Shown: in pieces, positions 48,101 to 58,300 of the stretch
How the letters are laid out: the number at the start of each line of letters is the position of its first letter
Numbering within the stretch: position 1 is the stretch's first letter
Assembly: GCF_026151205.1 (NCBI RefSeq)
Contig: NC_087074.1
Span: 14,814,667-14,878,666, forward strand
DNA length: 64,000 nt
Source of the DNA: Bolinopsis microptera
Lineage: Eukaryota > Ctenophora > Tentaculata > Lobata > Bolinopsidae
Reading direction: 5' to 3'
Notes under the pieces: model-generated
The model's input: only the letters and a program-made list of their open reading frames with translations
Databases searched by the model: none
What the model was told of the DNA's origin: nothing
Program-made: the position numbers and the translations under genes

Positions 48101-49741
48101 GCACTTAGAAACCGGTTGAAAATCAAACGACTGATATAGTGATTAAGGACATCGAGAACGATGGACATCGATGGAACACAATAACTTTGAAGACAACAGA
48201 GAGTTTTATCCAAGAGAGCCTCATACATGCATTTGAAATTGACGTTTATTAGTTAAGACTTAATCAGGATCCGTGGAGAAAATGTCGAAGTGAAATAACT
48301 AGCGTAAGCGGTACTGCATGATCATCACTTAACTTTGATATTAGTGATTAGCTTGAAAAGAAATATTGATAAGATTTTGGTCATTAAGATCAAATAAATA
48401 TGAACTGTTAATAGTACATATCATTTTTAATTGCGTGGAATGTGTATCATTTAACTTACCATTTTTATTATTTCTTATATTTTGTTTTTCAATTGTTAAC
48501 AAAAGTACAGAATGTAGGAAGGAATCCATAATAATTGCCACTTTATATTTATTTACCTATATTGACCATTGTTAATGGTCTGGCCCGGCGGCGCGCGCTA
48601 CTTCGAAGAAATTTAGACGAGTAACATCCGTCAATTACCTATCTTGCTGGTTTATGTGACAGATAATGCATAAATAATGCACGGCTAAATTGTGTTAAAG
48701 TTATATTTGTCATACCACATTGAGTCAAGTAGATTTTAACGGTTAGGGGCCCTTTTAGAAAAATCTCGTAGATCAACTGTATAATAAAGTATAATACGAG
48801 TTGGACTCGTCGATAATCCATTTGAAACAAATATTAATATTTTACAAGTATCACCCGTTAAGGCCCAGTAGCGCATTTCGCTGATCTAACTACGGTTGCG
48901 AGAAGCATAATTGAGTGCGCGGCGCGACCCATGCAGTAACGTACCAGTAATTTAACGCATCCCCACTGCGAGATGATCATTCGCGAGGTGAAAATGAGCG
49001 CTGGGGACGATCTCTCTGAAATTTTACCTGTTGGTTCAGTGGACGATTTTAGCCACAGCGCCTTAAATTTAGCACGATCGTCCATAATCACACAAAGTTA
49101 CAGCTAATTTAGTGATGTAAACACTCGTTGCAATATACTGGAATTGAATCGAGCGCGTTACTATGGTTACTGCGCGTTGATATGGTTACTAGATTTAGAT
49201 TAGATTCATCGTTTTAGCGCGCGTAGCACGTAGCATTATTACAATTCTATCATATTGTCATATTATTATTAGATGCACGAGTTTAGCTGCATTTTACATT
49301 TAATTTCAGGAATCTGCAAGATTTGTAATCGATTAGATAATATTTAATTTCGTTCTTCATTCCTTGCTTGGCGGTCCTCATTTATGTATGTATTTTACCT
49401 GGGAGCGGGAACTCCAGGCTCAAGGCTACGCTTTTCATTAACCGGGATGTAATTTTCATAAACCGATTAGAGTTTAGTCAGTATGACATGCTGATCGCCG
49501 CCAGACAGTTGAAAATTTGTTTCATACACATAAAATTGATTGTGTCATATCTGAGTTCTTGGCTGTATTTCGAAACCTCAGTCAGTTGTGGGTTTTTACC
49601 GGCCTAAATAAAAAGTCAAGTTTACAGGACATTTCTGGGGAACCTTACTATGTGTTTTACTTAACAAGATCAAAGATGCGAAGGTGAGGAAAAGGAAGCG
49701 TGCATTCGAGAGCGTATCATTTTGTACATTATATTACCCCG
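48101..49741. other. Gene-poor stretch downstream of the RTK
   Basis: It contains the presumed RTK 3'UTR (to about 48410) and GC-rich CGCGCG patches (48585 and 49205). No gene was supported. Confidence 0.5.
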
Positions 49742-49749
49742 ATCTGAAG

Positions 49750-50557
49750 CAGGAGGTGACCGGGATTGGCAATTTTGAGTTATCCCGGTCCCGGTCAACC
49801 GGGTCAAGTCACATTTTTCATCCCGGTCGCGGTCAAATGCTGATTTATGATCCCGGTCCCGGTTAATTCAGGATTCTTGGTCCCGGTCAATCACTCAAAT
49901 TTGCCGGGATTTTGACCGGGATCTTTTACATAATTTCATTCACTGTGATTTTAAGTTTTTACTTTCATTCATTGTGAATTTCATCTTTAAACAACCTCTG
50001 AGCCAAATAAAACAATGTTTAAAATTGCTAAACAAGTTTAGGTAACTAATATCGTTACATAACTCATAAGTGCAAACTAACATCAAGTTTTCAACTCGGG
50101 CTACGCCCAATTATCAATTGGAGAATGAAACTGTTGAATAATTTGAGGGATCATTGACTGAGGAATGAGGAATGAGGGTGAACTTGAGTAATCAGTACAT
50201 GAACATTATTGGTGTAGTACATTAGGCCCATGCCCCATATTGACGGGTTTTTTCTAATTTAATATTCTAGTTATTACTTATTCAAATTGTTCAATTATAA
50301 TGTAAATGAAAGTTGCAGCTTTCAATATGAGAATACCAGTTTTGGTCCCGGTCATCCCGGTAAAATCCCGGTCATCCCGAAAAAATTGTATTGTTGGTCC
50401 CGGTCCTGGTCCCGGTCCCGGTAAGATAGAAATCCCAGAAATTATTGGTCCCGGTCCCGGTAAATTGATAATCTCAGTCCCGGTCCCGGTCAAGTCACAT
50501 TTTGTATCCCGGTCCCGGTCCCGGTCAGGCCTAAAATCATGTCCCGGTCACCTCCTG
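49750..50557. mobile_element. hAT-type non-autonomous element (808 bp)
   Basis: The ends are inverted (CAGGAGGTGACCGGGA) and flanked by the exact 8-bp duplication ATCTGAAG (49742-49749 and 50558-50565), the hallmark of hAT elements. Both subterminal regions are packed with CCCGGTC-type hexamers, at 49775-49920 and 50345-50545. No transposase frame is present. Confidence 0.92.
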
Positions 50558-50559
50558 AT

Positions 50560-52259
50560 CTGAAGTTTGATGACTAGAAAACAGTGAATACAATTAATGT
50601 TTATTAATATTATTATCGAACTTCATATTATATTGTTTATCCTAAGTAAAGATCTGATAACTCTACAACAGGGATCGGTTAAACTATAAATGGAAACAAT
50701 TTAAATACTGAAACATAAACTAGTGTTAACATATCTATAATACGTTAACTTAAAACTTAATTACATCAACTTGCAAGATTTAAAAAATTTTCCCTATAAA
50801 ATACAGAGGCAATATCAAATATGGCACAGTTCAGTCAAATGAAAAAATCTGTTTGTTGATGGCACTGAAGAATATTTTGAAAAAAGCTACGATGAAAGTT
50901 GAAGGAACAGTTAAAGGAACACTATACCAATTTCAGAATGTAAATTTTCGTGTTTAAATATCATACTTTATAAGGTATAAAGTTTCGTATTATTAATCAA
51001 AAGTTGGTGTAATATCACACGTAACACGTTTTAGATATTAAACAGAAGAAAGTTTTTTTGTCCTAGATCAAGAGCTGCTCATTTCTCACAAGCAGTGTGG
51101 TCGGGGTTCTGTTCTTCGATTCTTGCTGCCTTTGTCTTTCGCACGCAAGTAGGAGTACCCTGAGGATTAGAGGCAATAATAATAATAACGCTTTATTTGT
51201 ATACCGCTTAGGCCGTATAATCAACCATGAATTATTAAAATTTTATAGTTCTACAATTGGAACCTGCGACTTGTTTTGCAGTGAATCACAATCCAGACGA
51301 AATGTGTAATTTTAAAAAGTATAGGTACACACCTGTCCGTAGTTTCTCGTACATCACGCGTGACGTCCGGCTAGAAGGAGTTTCTCCCAGGTCTGCTGTC
51401 TAGGAAGAGAGAATGGGAGATGAGAGCTGTCAGATGAGATGGTGGTCCAAAAGAAACTGCTGGGAGCCTGACAGAAAACCGTATTGCAAGCCCCGAAACG
51501 GTGTCAGGTTTGTGACTGAAGATTCTGATCAAGCTCAGGGTTGAGTCTACACAGTGTCGCCACTTGCCGATGCCAGTTGATGCGACAGGACACTGATTTA
51601 AGTGGGAAGTTGTGTCTAAGAAACAGCGTGTGGTTCGGGTGCCGGTTGAACGCATGTAATAGGGAGGGTATATCCGTATTTCGCTGCTAGGAGGTGGTCC
51701 GCAGATTGCGTGAAGATGCCTACTTTTAAACCTATCAATAGGTTCAATAGGTAGGTGCTAGTGATGCAGTCCTTGACCCGGAAGCTAAGGCTTCCCCGTT
51801 TCTCGCTCATTTGTGCTCCGATGTTCTTGTGACCTCTGCAGGGGTCAAGTGCAGGATGAGGGACATGGCCGACCAAGAGAAGGTTGTTTTTGAGAGGTAT
51901 TTTTATACAGTTTAACTGTATCATTACCCTTGGAAATCTCTCGACCCAAACGATGCCAAATTCTGCCTCCGAGCACAAGTACTTTGTAGGGGGTCAGCGA
52001 GTCATTTCATGTCTATTGTTCAATGTCGTTGAGCAAGGGGGAGGTTAGCTGCTGTCTACTGCCGTTATTCTCCAATTCTTAGAGTTCGTCTTTCGCACGT
52101 GAGTAAGTTTCCTGGGGAAAATAAATAGTCAACCAAAAATTATTAATAATAAACATAGATGGACTTCCCACAATTATAACCAGTAAATCTGACACCTGCT
52201 AGCTGGCGTAAATTTAAAATTTAACACGCAGTGCGCGCGCCGCGCGCTAAAAATATCTC
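50560..52259. other. Repeat-derived stretch, no supported gene
   Basis: A diverged direct repeat (GTCTTTCGCACG followed by AATAATA and a TCAACC...ATTATTA block) occurs at about 51115-51260 and 52070-52200. The ~800 bp between has higher GC and overlapping minus-strand ORFs (51371-51655 and 51616-51978) without a recognisable family. It may be an old retroelement with short direct terminal repeats. Confidence 0.4.
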
Positions 52260-55200
52260 AAATTTGAAAACTGATGTGGTTCTTATTACCGAAAATCGAA
52301 TTCGCGCCAGCCCAGTAGATGAATCCATAAATTTGGAACATGGGCACATCGCAGTATTGGCCGTATTTGAGTGCTGGGAAGGCTCAGTTCGGTTTTCTAA
52401 GATGGACATAGCCGTAAGCTAGGCCTAGGAGCCATCAAAAGTCGTATAAAATTACCCATGGAATGACCAGAAATGAACGAAAATGAACATTCTTCTCAAA
52501 GTGCTCAGAATGGTTTAAAATGGGTCGGAAAGTGTTTATATTAGTCCTAGGACCACTCAAACCAAGTTTGGGAATCACTGCATGTCTAGAACCGATGTTA
52601 CCAATGTTCCAAAATGTTCCAATTTTGGCACAATAATCCTCCTGAGAATCCAGATTTTTGGAACATGGGCACATCGAAGTATTGGCTGTATTTAAGTGCT
52701 GGGAAGCCTCAATTCGGTTTTCTAAGATGGATGTAGGTAAAAACTAGGCCTAAGAGCCATCAAAACTCAAATAACATTACCCAGGTTCATGGAATGTATG
52801 GAAAATGAACAAAAATGAAAATAGTAGTTGAGATGGTGGAAACATTTGATACAATTTTGGAAACATGCTTTTACAGCCGTATTTATGCTTGTACTGACTT
52901 GGACACGTTCATAAAAAGGTGGCACTAGAGATTGATTTTTCACTGCCAAAATTGTGTGAAGCATTTTAAAATACTTGTATCTCAAGGAGTATGCTATGAA
53001 AGTTAACCAAATTTTAATGTGGTCCAAAAAGATTCAAATGTCACATAATAAAGTCATTCATCTCTTTATATCTGTTAATTGTGCAGATATGAGCCAGAAA
53101 TCACAAAATATTCATTTCTTGCACCTCTAATGATGAATTTACATTCTGTGAGTGTGTCCTGCTTCTCAATGTGATTATTGAACCTTTTTGAGATAGCTGA
53201 GTGTTAAAAGTGCAAAGAATCACCGGTTAAATGTGGAGTTACGATGCAATTATCACATACAGGGTTAATTCTGACTAAGTATTTTAGAATGATGAATGTG
53301 ATATGAATATCAACGGAATGATTGTAACAATGAACTCTATCAATCACAATTATATCATGCTAACTAATATTTAGAGAATTTAGATGGTTAAAAGTGCCAT
53401 AATGAGTCAAAAATCACATAAATGAGCATGTATTGAAATGATGCTGTATCAGGGGAATGTACACTGTCCATTTGAACACTGTCCATTAGTACTCCGATGA
53501 AAAAGCGATGAATGTCGATTTGCCGTGATTCTAGCTTTGTGTGTTATTGTGTGATTTCAATGCACGGCAATGAAGGGACTCAGGTACCACGATCTGGCAG
53601 ACAAACATGTCTGAACAGACATAGCGAGTCAGATCTGGTTCAGGAAATTTTATCGTTAAAGAGATATTCATATTTCATATGAATCAATACTCAGGTTTCT
53701 AATTTTGGACTCGCCCGGGGTTTGATTATGATACTTTGAGGAATGACATTTGATTTATAAGTTGATTTCAAATCCCCTATGGGTACCAGAAATACTGGTT
53801 TCACAACAACAACATCACTTTTTGGCTCTATATCAGGTTGGTATTCATAGTAAATCTGCAGTAATTTGTTGTGACACTGCACTTGTTTATGGTCATGGAG
53901 AAGTTCGTTATTAGAGTAATAGTGGAATCAATAATCACAAAACACTGATTTTAAACTGATTAAACTAGGCAAGTACTTTTACTACTCAGGCCATGATAAT
54001 TTTGTCTCCATACTGTGACAAATGAATCAATCAGTTACGTATAATACTTAATTGAATTTTTGAAATGTGATTATCGATTCATTACCTTTCTTTTCAAAAT
54101 GTCATTACAACTTGAACATTACATATGATTCAATTGTCATACTTTAAAGAAAATTACATAGTTGGTAGCCAGATTTGTGTGATTTTTGAATCATTTAACC
54201 ACCCAGATCAAAAATTATCGCTCAAAGGCCTTCAATATGGTATAAGCTTAGACATGGATTCAAAAATCACATAATAAGAACCATAGAATGGATATATGTT
54301 GTCATATTGTGCACTTAATTTAAGGCTTACTATAGTGAGACTTAATAGCGCACCAATAACGAAAATGTGATTTTTGAATCATATTAACTGGTTTTAATAC
54401 TATTTAATACTATTTTGTACCCTAAAAAATGATAGAAAGCCAATAAAAACATAAGATGATTCAATAATCACTGCTCAAAATAGGCTCATTTCCAATGTTT
54501 AAGTTGTGATTTTTGAATCATTTTGGCACCAATAACAATTTCAGATAAGACATTTTATTCCTTACATGCATTATAGTCACCATATCAATTTTGGCGTCTT
54601 TGTGAATAGTACTTTTCAGATTATCTAGTGTTGATTCATCTTGCATTTCTAATTGTGTGATTTTTGAATCATTGGCACACAAATAACGATAACTCCTGTG
54701 ATATAAGCACTACAGACTCCGTGATTTCAGGATCATGAAATTTAATCGAATTTCTAAAGGTATAGATAGATATATCAACCAACAAAGAGCAATGACCATT
54801 TTAAAAACTCATTTAAAAAAAATCAATCTCTAGTGCCACCTTTTTTTGAACGTGTCCACTTGGAATCTATCTGGTATGGTAGAAGGACACATGTACTAAC
54901 ATTTCCAGCCACTTAGAAGTGCAAAATACTCCCCTGGTTCATGGAATGAATGAAATGAACACAAAATGAACATTTTCCTAGAATCCCCTGAATTGGGCTA
55001 AAACCAATTGGAATCGGTCGGTATTGATACCAGGAGTGTCCCTGAGAAGTTTGGTGTGCCTAGCATGTTCAGAAAGGGCTCTGGGGCAATGTTTCTATTT
55101 TGGTTTCAGAGTAGTTGAGATGGTGGAAACAATTGACACAAATTTAGAAACATGCTTTTTAGCGGTAATTATGCCTGGACTGGCATGGAATCGATATGGT

Positions 55201-55290
55201 ATGGTGGAGGGGTATATTAACTACATTTTTGGGTGTTTTCAAATTAAAGATTTCAAAGCCAGATTTTCGGCTTAAGTTGGATGGGACATG
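52260..55290. repeat. Tandem ~320-bp module array, interrupted by an insertion
   Basis: Modules share GGAACATGGGCACATCG, GTGCTGGGAAG, CGGTTTTCTAAGATGG, an AAATGAAC run and GTAGTTGAGATGGTGGAAAC. GGAACATGGGCACATCG starts at about 52337 and 52660. The GTAGTTGAGATGG block is at 52824 and 55111. The array is split by the element at 52901-54857. Confidence 0.8.
52901..54857. mobile_element. 1,957-bp inverted-repeat element with internal motif array
   Basis: The 40-bp ends (starting GGACACGTTCA) match as inverted repeats with one mismatch: 52901-52940 and 54818-54857. ACTT flanks both sides (52897-52900 and 54858-54861). A paralogous module at 55111-55210 shows the same flanks joined without the insertion. 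Inside, TGTGATTTTTGAATCAT or close variants recur on both strands, e.g. 54178, 54258, 54366, 54457, 54505 and 54656. A minus-strand frame at 53691-53882 is open but has no transposase motif. The superfamily is not assigned. Confidence 0.85.
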
Positions 55291-55344
55291 CCCAAATTGT
55301 ATATGCTTTGATCGTGATCGGGTTTTCAAAAATAAACGATTTAC

Positions 55345-58300
55345 CTTTCGCATATGATGGACTTTTTCCCGAAGAAGGTGGGTATTTTATCCTTGTAGTT
55401 TTCCAGAGAAGGACGTAGTCTTTTCCACATCTCTGTCATCAGAGAAGTCCTTTCGATTAAACGGTCCCTGTTTGGCACTCCTGAGATAATTGACTGTCTT
55501 ATACACAATGGTTTTACCGTTTACAACATTTGCAGTAATATTTATTACCGAATTTAATTAGAATTTAACCCATACATTTTTAACACATGAACTGCTGTAT
55601 CAGTAACCATCAAAATAGAAACAAACCTATGAATTTGATGTTTATCTTGTTAAGTGGGAGGTTAACCTCTTCTTGACACAAAATACCCAGTCGTCTCCTG
55701 AGATCTCCGACATGACAGAGGAAGCTACTGTCGAGTTCGATATTACAGCTAACCTAAGATAGTCAAACTGAGTGGGATCAATTTTAAGCATTACAAATCA
55801 GCAGTTATCAAGCAAATGTGATGAAAGAGCCATTATTGAAATGTAAGGCAGATCTAGAGCTAGGAATGTGTTTAGGGGCATCAAAGAATAAGTATCTGTG
55901 TACTGTTCTTTACCATACCATTTAAACGATTTAATACATGGAAGTATCACAATAATATACTTTTTCAACAACATAAACACATTTAAAAAAAGGCTCGAAT
56001 GGGTTATCGATATTTCCATATAATGCAGGATTGAAATAATCTGTTTAGGAGTAATACGTTCAAATTCGATCCTGATCTACAAAAGTGTAACATGATAGCA
56101 AAATCCGCTCTGCTTTTCTATACTAGAACAAGTTTTAGTAGTCTCCAGCACATCACAGCTTAAAGGCAGTAACACTAAATCGATTACATTAAATAATCTC
56201 TCAGGATCATTTAGTAATATCTGTATTTCAATGTGCAACGAAACAGCTTCTATACTACTTTCCTACTTCTATACTACTTTACTATCAACTAGATATACGG
56301 TTTGAGCATTGAAGCTCTATGCTGTGAGCAGTAACGAAAAGAGATGGGATTGCAATATATCGACTCACTTGTGAAAATAATGATTAAATCTCCTAATTAC
56401 GATTTCTAACTGCGCGGCGTAGTGCGTACTTTGAAATCCAAATAAAAATTATTTTTGATCAAAATATTGGAAAACAAAATTACAACATGATTCAAATCTT
56501 GTGTAAAAAAATGTTATAAACAATATGCTGTTAAAAACTTTCGTGAAAAATTTTAAAAAGCATGATTTCCACCCGATTATGTGAAGTTATCATTTTTATG
56601 ACTTTTACAGGTTATAATTTTTGTCAAGAGCTTAGCCATTTGTCAAAATTTAGGTCATGGTATCATGTTATGTGACTATACAATGAGATTATAATCCGTT
56701 GATGTATAATATCTTGGAGTTTATCAGGGGATGAAATTATTTGTAGGTTTATAAACTACCAAAACGCGCGCTGGGTTGGACTCGTTGTATAATAATAATG
56801 TATAACTATCAATACATGATACACGATAACGTAAAACTATATAAATCGATAACATATAAGATCAAATAAACCATATGGTACCAAGTTACATTAATTGATG
56901 AAATCTTTCCATGTTTTAGAATGAAAATCCATACACAAATTTCCTAGCTTTAAGTATGACACACATTATTACATGATAACGAATTGATTTAACGCGCATA
57001 TGCAAAATATATTGTAATTGTATAAGAATCGACCTTGTTTTTTAAAGATTAGTCATTTAAAGTATCGATGAGAAAATCCCTGTACAAATAGCTTCTACTT
57101 ATAATCCGATAATTTATGTTGTATGATGCAATAAAAATACTCATACCGCGCGCAGCTTGAACTACGACATACGCAAGCGTTCAGTTGCAAATTATAAGGT
57201 CTACCGAAGTTTGTAGGGCGCGAAAAATTTTATGTTGACGTGCTCGCGCATTCTGAGTAGTCAGCTCGCGTTGGGTCTCGCTACAAGATGAAAATTCAAA
57301 TATTTTAACCGGGAAATATCCTGTCCAAACCCAAAATACACAACATTGAACATGAAAACTTTTCATGCTGTAACTTGTATGAACAATGAAAAGCATAAAT
57401 AATAAAAAGTAAAATACTTTTTAAGTAAAATACAATTTTTATTTTCCACAAAAGAATCAATACATATTGAATTATAAATATCCGATAATTCCATTAATAA
57501 TCATTAAAAGTTGCTTTGTCATTTGTAAAATCAAAAACGAAAAGCCGTAGTACGCTGAACTGTGAACGCGCGCGGCGTTTTTTCTGCAGCTGCCTAGCTT
57601 CAAGCTTGTAGCCGCTAACATCAAAGCCGCCGCGCTCGCCCAGTGCTGGGGTGCATTCTCATTAACAATTAAACTTGGTCAAAGATAGTTATATACAATT
57701 CCTAAATTAAATTAATAATCATGTTAATATGAGTATTCAACACTACTCGACAACAAATATTTGCCGGCCCATCAACGATTCAGTCGCCGAAACAAAAATC
57801 AAATGTTTGCTTTTTTCGTTTCGGGGACTGTTTGAACTCAGTACTATATCCGACTAATTATACTTTATAATGGTTAAAATACAAAGTAAAAAGATTTTCC
57901 TCGATGGGCCGGCATTCACAACCGCGAAACGTTTTGAGTACGACGAACGATGACACCACCACCAGCCGTTAATCAATAAGGTAAGTTATAGAACTCCTGA
58001 CCAAACGAGTGCCGAAGGCACGAGTTTTGTCAAGAGTTCTATAAATTGCTTATGGTACGGCACAAGACAACAGTCATAGGAACATTTCCCGACTAAAATT
58101 TTGAAATTTAGTTCCTTTTAACCGTGTCAAATTGGCAAAAAACTGTATCTACTTCCGACACAAAGTGTTCATTGTCCATTGAGCATCATGCCATGCTGCT
58201 ACCATCGTCTTACTCTCGTGGTTGCCACATGACGGCTTACCAAACTGCTATTGGACAGCGCACGTTTGTCACGTGACGATTTGATTATTGATACTTATTG

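Follow-up and report, generated by a model that had tools for sequence, protein, structure and literature searches.

Element and host repeat in the window

The window, a 64,000-nucleotide stretch of DNA (C3:14814667-14878666), was analyzed against its genome, whose 232 contigs total 264,652,675 bases; C1 to C13 are 15-26 Mb each and 258.1 Mb together, and the remaining 219 contigs comprise 6.6 Mb. Within the window, an element with inverted ends lies in an array of tandem modules that is itself part of a larger repeat (Table 1). A sequence-only reading had described it as a 2-kb insertion with 40-bp inverted ends, ACTT on both sides, and no transposase. Both copies of ACTT are present, and the terminal inverted repeats (TIRs) are complementary at 39 of 40 positions; a repeat-finding tool reports 41-nt TIRs because the duplication bases T52900 and A54858 also pair. 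The 2-kb span likewise held, but its 1957 bp contain a nested insert, and the copy L025 measures 1604 bp. The element is a genuine insertion of a non-autonomous TIR DNA transposon from a family whose members are usually ~1.6 kb. The extra length of the copy in the window is due to the nested fragment, which is missing in L025.

Table 1. Coordinates of features in the window
Feature	Position	Strand	Details
Host repeat, larger TIR element	48962-57275	.	8314 bp; ends CCCACTGCGAG... and ...GCGTTGGG
Host 2-bp duplication	48960-48961 and 57276-57277		TC
Tandem module, two copies	52321-52783	+	138 nt aligned, spacing 325; the array is the insertion target
Left target-site duplication	52897-52900	.	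ACTT
Non-autonomous TIR DNA transposon	52901-54857	.	1957 bp, including the nested insert
Left TIR	52901-52940	+	40 bp, GGACACGTTCATAAAAAGGTGGCACTAGAGATTGATTTTT
Span of dispersed motif GTGAYTNTTGAMTCA	53030-54735	both	23 matches, up to 3 mismatches
Nested insert	53462-53814	+	353 bp; 3' end near ...CACAACAACAAC; absent from L025
Right TIR	54818-54857	-	40 bp; single mismatch to left TIR at position 12 (A for T)
Right target-site duplication	54858-54861	.	ACTT

Termini of the family start with GGACACG, giving GG..CC ends, and the end sequence of the family is GGACACGTTCATAAAAAGGTGGCACTAGAG. Among 14 chosen ends, every column of the 40 except column 12 was at least 90% identical, and in diverged copies (two in L046 and one in L098) the ends were 97-100% alike and the interior 86-88%, as would be expected of transposase binding sites. 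When the left end was folded as DNA, its stability was not above that of shuffles. The interior carries a dispersed motif, GTGAYTNTTGAMTCA, with 23 matches in the window element (mean 2.3 and maximum 10 in 200 first-order Markov sequences) and 18 in the copy L038 (mean 1.7 and maximum 7 in 200 Markov sequences), an enrichment that is partly circular because the motif was picked from the same sequence. Because of the partly palindromic motif, certain sites are matched on both strands, and the matches correspond to about 15-16 sites and a further one within the nested insert. Its conservation in the diverged copies was 90-94% versus 86-88% elsewhere, a weak excess, and one might guess at a role for it in the element.

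The absence of a transposase from the element was borne out: the ORF list holds no sizeable ORF inside 52901-54857, and of the 11 stop-to-stop frames of at least 35 aa in a 1.6-kb copy, 10 were compared with Pfam, all of them staying below the cut-off with weak matches only (E 0.029 or worse). No RNA families were found in 48900-57400 at E up to 1, and no tRNA. Beyond the host repeat, the nested 353-bp insert is matched well at 13 places, and five other aligned copies extend further 5' and stop near the same 3' place. It is probably the 5'-truncated 3' part of a longer, retroelement-like repeat; no duplication is evident around it in the window.

The right edge of the host repeat is shared by 23 other places, which stop at 57275 or a few bases from it; the left edge is shared by 21, which begin at 48962 or a few bases from it, except for one of them that begins 14 bases further out. 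Its inverted ends are related but imperfect (CCCACTGCGAG, with CCCAACGCGAG read from the opposite strand). A 2-bp duplication flanks 10 of the 11 host copies whose junctions were compared (the window and 10 others), the exception being L077/L078 (TC vs TT), and L073/L074 is compatible with 3 bp too. Shared edges, inverted ends, and 2-bp duplications together indicate that the host, too, is mobile. No large ORF was found among the ORFs listed for 50000-58000. More diverged modules lie to the right of the GGACACG element, e.g., at 55110-55223. The modules at 52313-52825 (325-331 bp) occur elsewhere in foldback-like tandem arrays, first forward and then reversed (C2:16130026-16135962, C9:12224062-12227379, and C8:9773354-9776980). 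A CCCGGTC-rich repeat in the left part of the host (49747-50560) is also found alone at 18 other places, with 87-93% identity.

Genomic copies and target-site duplications

The sequence-only reading had proposed searching the genome with the element's end for full-length copies and an autonomous relative, and tabulating target duplications over many copies. The search yielded many two-ended copies. A genome-wide pattern search with a 30-bp end, in which as many as 3 mismatches were allowed, gave 143 matches versus 0 for the reversed sequence used as a control, and 124 of these ends formed 48 neighboring pairs and 28 unpaired ends. In a search with the whole element, 40 of 136 candidate places were scored, and 40 loci were examined at their ends; 37 were two-ended copies. 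The right flank ACTTGGAATC was common to 24 of the 37, with the left flank shared as well in 23 of these and different in one (L013), and the remaining 13 were ~1.6 kb and had different flanks. No left end was seen in the stretches covered for three loci (L023, L029, and L030); L029 was completed as L044 and L030 as L043. The best full-length matches are thus mostly copies carried along by the larger host repeat and not separate insertions.

Mean difference was 2.5% among 14 independent 1.6-kb copies and 0.6% among 22 host-borne copies; between L025 and the copy in the window, 8 of 1604 positions differ. A 36-kb pair of ends on C11 represents two inverted duplicates of one insertion, with flanks identical over 70 bp. 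A 32-kb pair (C10:9863395-9895854, in L059 and L099) is one GGACACG element split by ~31 kb of other DNA, with ATAA on both sides. Among the 40 scored of 158 candidates, the diverged subfamily seen in L046 was confined to a single C11 cluster. This cluster of subfamily fragments spans C11:1655790-1691006 (part in L046), and L046 also holds a 353-aa ORF that looks by eye like a multi-helix receptor and has no Pfam match.

Target duplications were tabulated for 32 copies that have both ends and do not lie in the host repeat of the window. A perfect 4-bp duplication was present in 29, and flanks matched at 3 bp or at 5-8 bp in none of the 32; randomly re-paired flanks, as a control, matched at 4 bp in 5.5 of 32 cases on average and in 12 at most. 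Two of the exceptions have a one-base mismatch each (AGAG/AGAA and ATAT/CTAT), and the third is a slip of the end finder, with ATAT recognized by eye. The commonest duplication was ATAT (11 of 29), and the symmetrized target over the 29 copies is YATATR.

A neighboring module at 55111 had been read as a preserved empty site. It does cross the insertion point, but it is 82% identical, reads GCAT, and is a paralogous tandem module, not an allelic site. Better empty sites, also paralogous and not allelic, are present in L120 (C1:17384400-17387950), where seven modules were aligned across the insertion point. Six carry a single ACTT (89-96% identity over 113-160 bases), which supports a true 4-bp duplication; the seventh (75% identity) does not. 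Diverged modules in L002, L005, L122, and the right flank of the window have GCAT, or ACTT followed by other bases. The ends, the duplication, and the paralogous empty sites in L120 all agree with the earlier claim of a real insertion.

Search for a transposase-bearing partner

The ends that were followed, most of the unpaired ones for 3-5 kb, led to no autonomous relative and no copy with a transposase. Longer copies were considered as candidates and rejected. In L041 (7.4 kb), a 1.6-kb element is broken up by another element that has endonuclease and reverse transcriptase domains, and the longer copy L056 has a long ORF with a reverse transcriptase domain, as in L041. In L044 (5.2 kb), a 496-aa ORF resembles reverse transcriptase by eye. 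Four others, L042 (2.3 kb), L043 (3.0 kb), L093 (4.5 kb), and L094 (3.7 kb), proved to be 1.6-kb elements that had been split or enlarged, and none of the ORFs in L093 and L094 is transposase-like by eye. The unpaired ends in L047-L051, L053, L055, L059, L060, and L095-L097 had no transposase partner within 3-5 kb. A GGACACG copy borders a frame resembling a C2H2 zinc finger by eye (L041:7697-7984). Beside a truncated GGACACG end, a 403-aa ORF (L053:660-1868) has a 2OG-Fe(II) oxygenase domain, and a PHD-like finger in it falls slightly short of the Pfam cut-off.

PHIS-type transposase domains (PF13359, DDE_Tnp_4) had 114 matches in the genome. At four of these 114 loci (L128, L129, L130, and L131), the GGACACG end was absent within the stretch covered. 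One match, C11:15943578, lies ~8 kb inside the unpaired end C11:15951700; this locus (L131) was rejected as the partner, since even with 9 mismatches allowed it showed no GGACACG end; it contains a block 99.3% alike to L128 over 2230 bp. Five DDE_Tnp_4 matches have equal scores (C7:8497185, C7:10319616, C11:16198, C11:15943578, and C13:10825327), and four of them lie in 403-aa open frames. L128 and L131, with their 99.3% block, are two of the five, which are likely a young transposon family. The end, duplication length, and target rule of the GGACACG family are well supported, and a transposase-bearing partner could be recognizable on sight.

Proposed history and relation to known groups

We are highly confident that the GGACACG elements are a non-autonomous cut-and-paste family that is moved in trans and of which one copy, nested in the host repeat, was spread by the host's transposition. 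A transposase made elsewhere, presumably with DDE chemistry, would recognize the 40-bp ends, excise the element, and join it to a staggered 4-bp cut in a YATATR-like target, and gap repair would then produce the 4-bp duplication. One copy would have inserted at ACTT in a tandem module of the 8.3-kb TIR element, a 5'-truncated retroelement-like fragment would have inserted into a GGACACG copy, and the host's own transposition would have carried the composite to ~25 places. The GGACACG family may have spread first, followed by the insertion in the host and the recent host spread; the retroelement-like fragment may have come in either ahead of this last step or in the course of it. The locus illustrates nesting clearly: most of the nearest "copies" of one transposon are passengers of another, and such passengers can mislead estimates of copy number and activity.

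The transposase probably belongs to a named superfamily with short duplications (such as Sola, Academ, a PHIS group, or a MuDR lineage), the parent having been lost from the assembly or having diverged ends. The stated duplication ranges of PHIS (none or 1-4 bp), AcademX (3-4 bp), Ginger1 (4 bp), and IS256/MuDR (4-10 bp) all include 4 bp (PMC10045372), Pangu ends usually start with AG or GG and NuwaI ends with GGG (PMC4482050), and PHIS-type transposases are common in this genome, with their 114 PF13359 matches. However, the PHIS groups described in PMC4482050 have 3-bp duplications (ANT in Pangu, CWG in NuwaI, and TNA in NuwaII), and four of the PF13359 loci have no GGACACG end within the stretch covered. 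Mobilization by a transposase of a yet unnamed superfamily is unlikely. Such an enzyme would make strict 4-bp duplications at YATATR, act on the 40-bp GGACACG end, and perhaps bind the ~15 inner GTGAYTNTTGAMTCA sites, a combination to which we give little credence. GG...CC ends with a strict 4 bp and YATATR do match no group described in PMC10045372 and PMC4482050, but these descriptions detail few superfamilies, and it is common for a family to fit none: of 6012 MITE families in insects, 481 have no assignment (PMC5199201), and neither has a silkworm family with ATAT duplications (PMC2997013). That the inverted ends are merely arms of a foldback or segmental duplication, as the inverted arrays formed elsewhere by the nearby 325-331-bp modules might suggest, is extremely improbable given matching 4-bp duplications at 29 of 32 separate sites and the paralogous empty sites in L120.

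As a cut-and-paste family, the GGACACG elements can be set beside the known superfamilies. For classifying non-autonomous elements, Repbase requires an equal duplication length and terminal positions 1-11 that can be aligned (PMC4455052). Their 4-bp duplication is equal in length to that of Sola (4 bp), whereas Tc1/mariner duplicates a 2-bp TA, and their GGACACG start differs from the ends of CMC elements (CACTA and Chapaev), which start with CAC. Ginger1 ends begin with TGT, Harbinger duplicates TWA and ISL2EU 2 bp, and MuDR duplications are usually 8-9 bp. With respect to the published ranges given above, 4 bp falls within that of AcademX and at the edge of that of IS256/MuDR. The PHIS superfamily (PIF/Harbinger, ISL2EU, Spy, Pangu, and Nuwa) resembles the GGACACG family in its short duplications, and Pangu and NuwaI also in their GG-type starts; Pangu, NuwaI, and NuwaII differ from it in duplicating 3 bp, a length seen in none of our 32 copies. 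Ginger1 and IS481EU resemble it in that 4-bp duplications occur, but IS481EU ends are TNT..AYA or TGT..ACA (PMC10045372) and those of our family GG..CC. The likeness to piggyBac lies in the 4-bp duplication and in termini (5'-CC..GG-3'; PMC10045372) that mirror GG..CC, whereas the piggyBac duplication TTAA (PMC5199201) occurs in none of the 29. Duplications of hAT (5-8 bp; PMC4482050) and P elements (7-8 bp; PMC5199201) are of lengths that were matched in none of the 32 copies.

Among shorter non-coding elements, MITEs are limited to 800 bp in iMITEdb (PMC5199201), a length exceeded by the standard GGACACG copy of ~1600 bp. The silkworm family BmMITE-10, called novel (PMC2997013), is likewise non-coding and unassigned to a superfamily, with TIRs and an ATAT duplication, but it is 258 bp long with the TIR CGTCGCTG..., compared with ~1.6 kb and GGACACG... 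in the window family. Transposable elements have been linked with chromatin loops in ctenophores and placozoans (PMC12221973), and nothing resembling the GGACACG family appears in what that source gives on ctenophore elements. A forward 12-mer of the end had no match in literature text, and its reverse complement matched only under unrelated titles. The earlier statement that no superfamily could be named for a 4-bp duplication with GGACACG termini is consistent with this comparison, in which the strict 4-bp YATATR duplication with GG..CC ends matches none of the few groups described in PMC10045372 and PMC4482050. The GGACACG elements are a new family of a known kind, set apart by comparison with the few published group descriptions.
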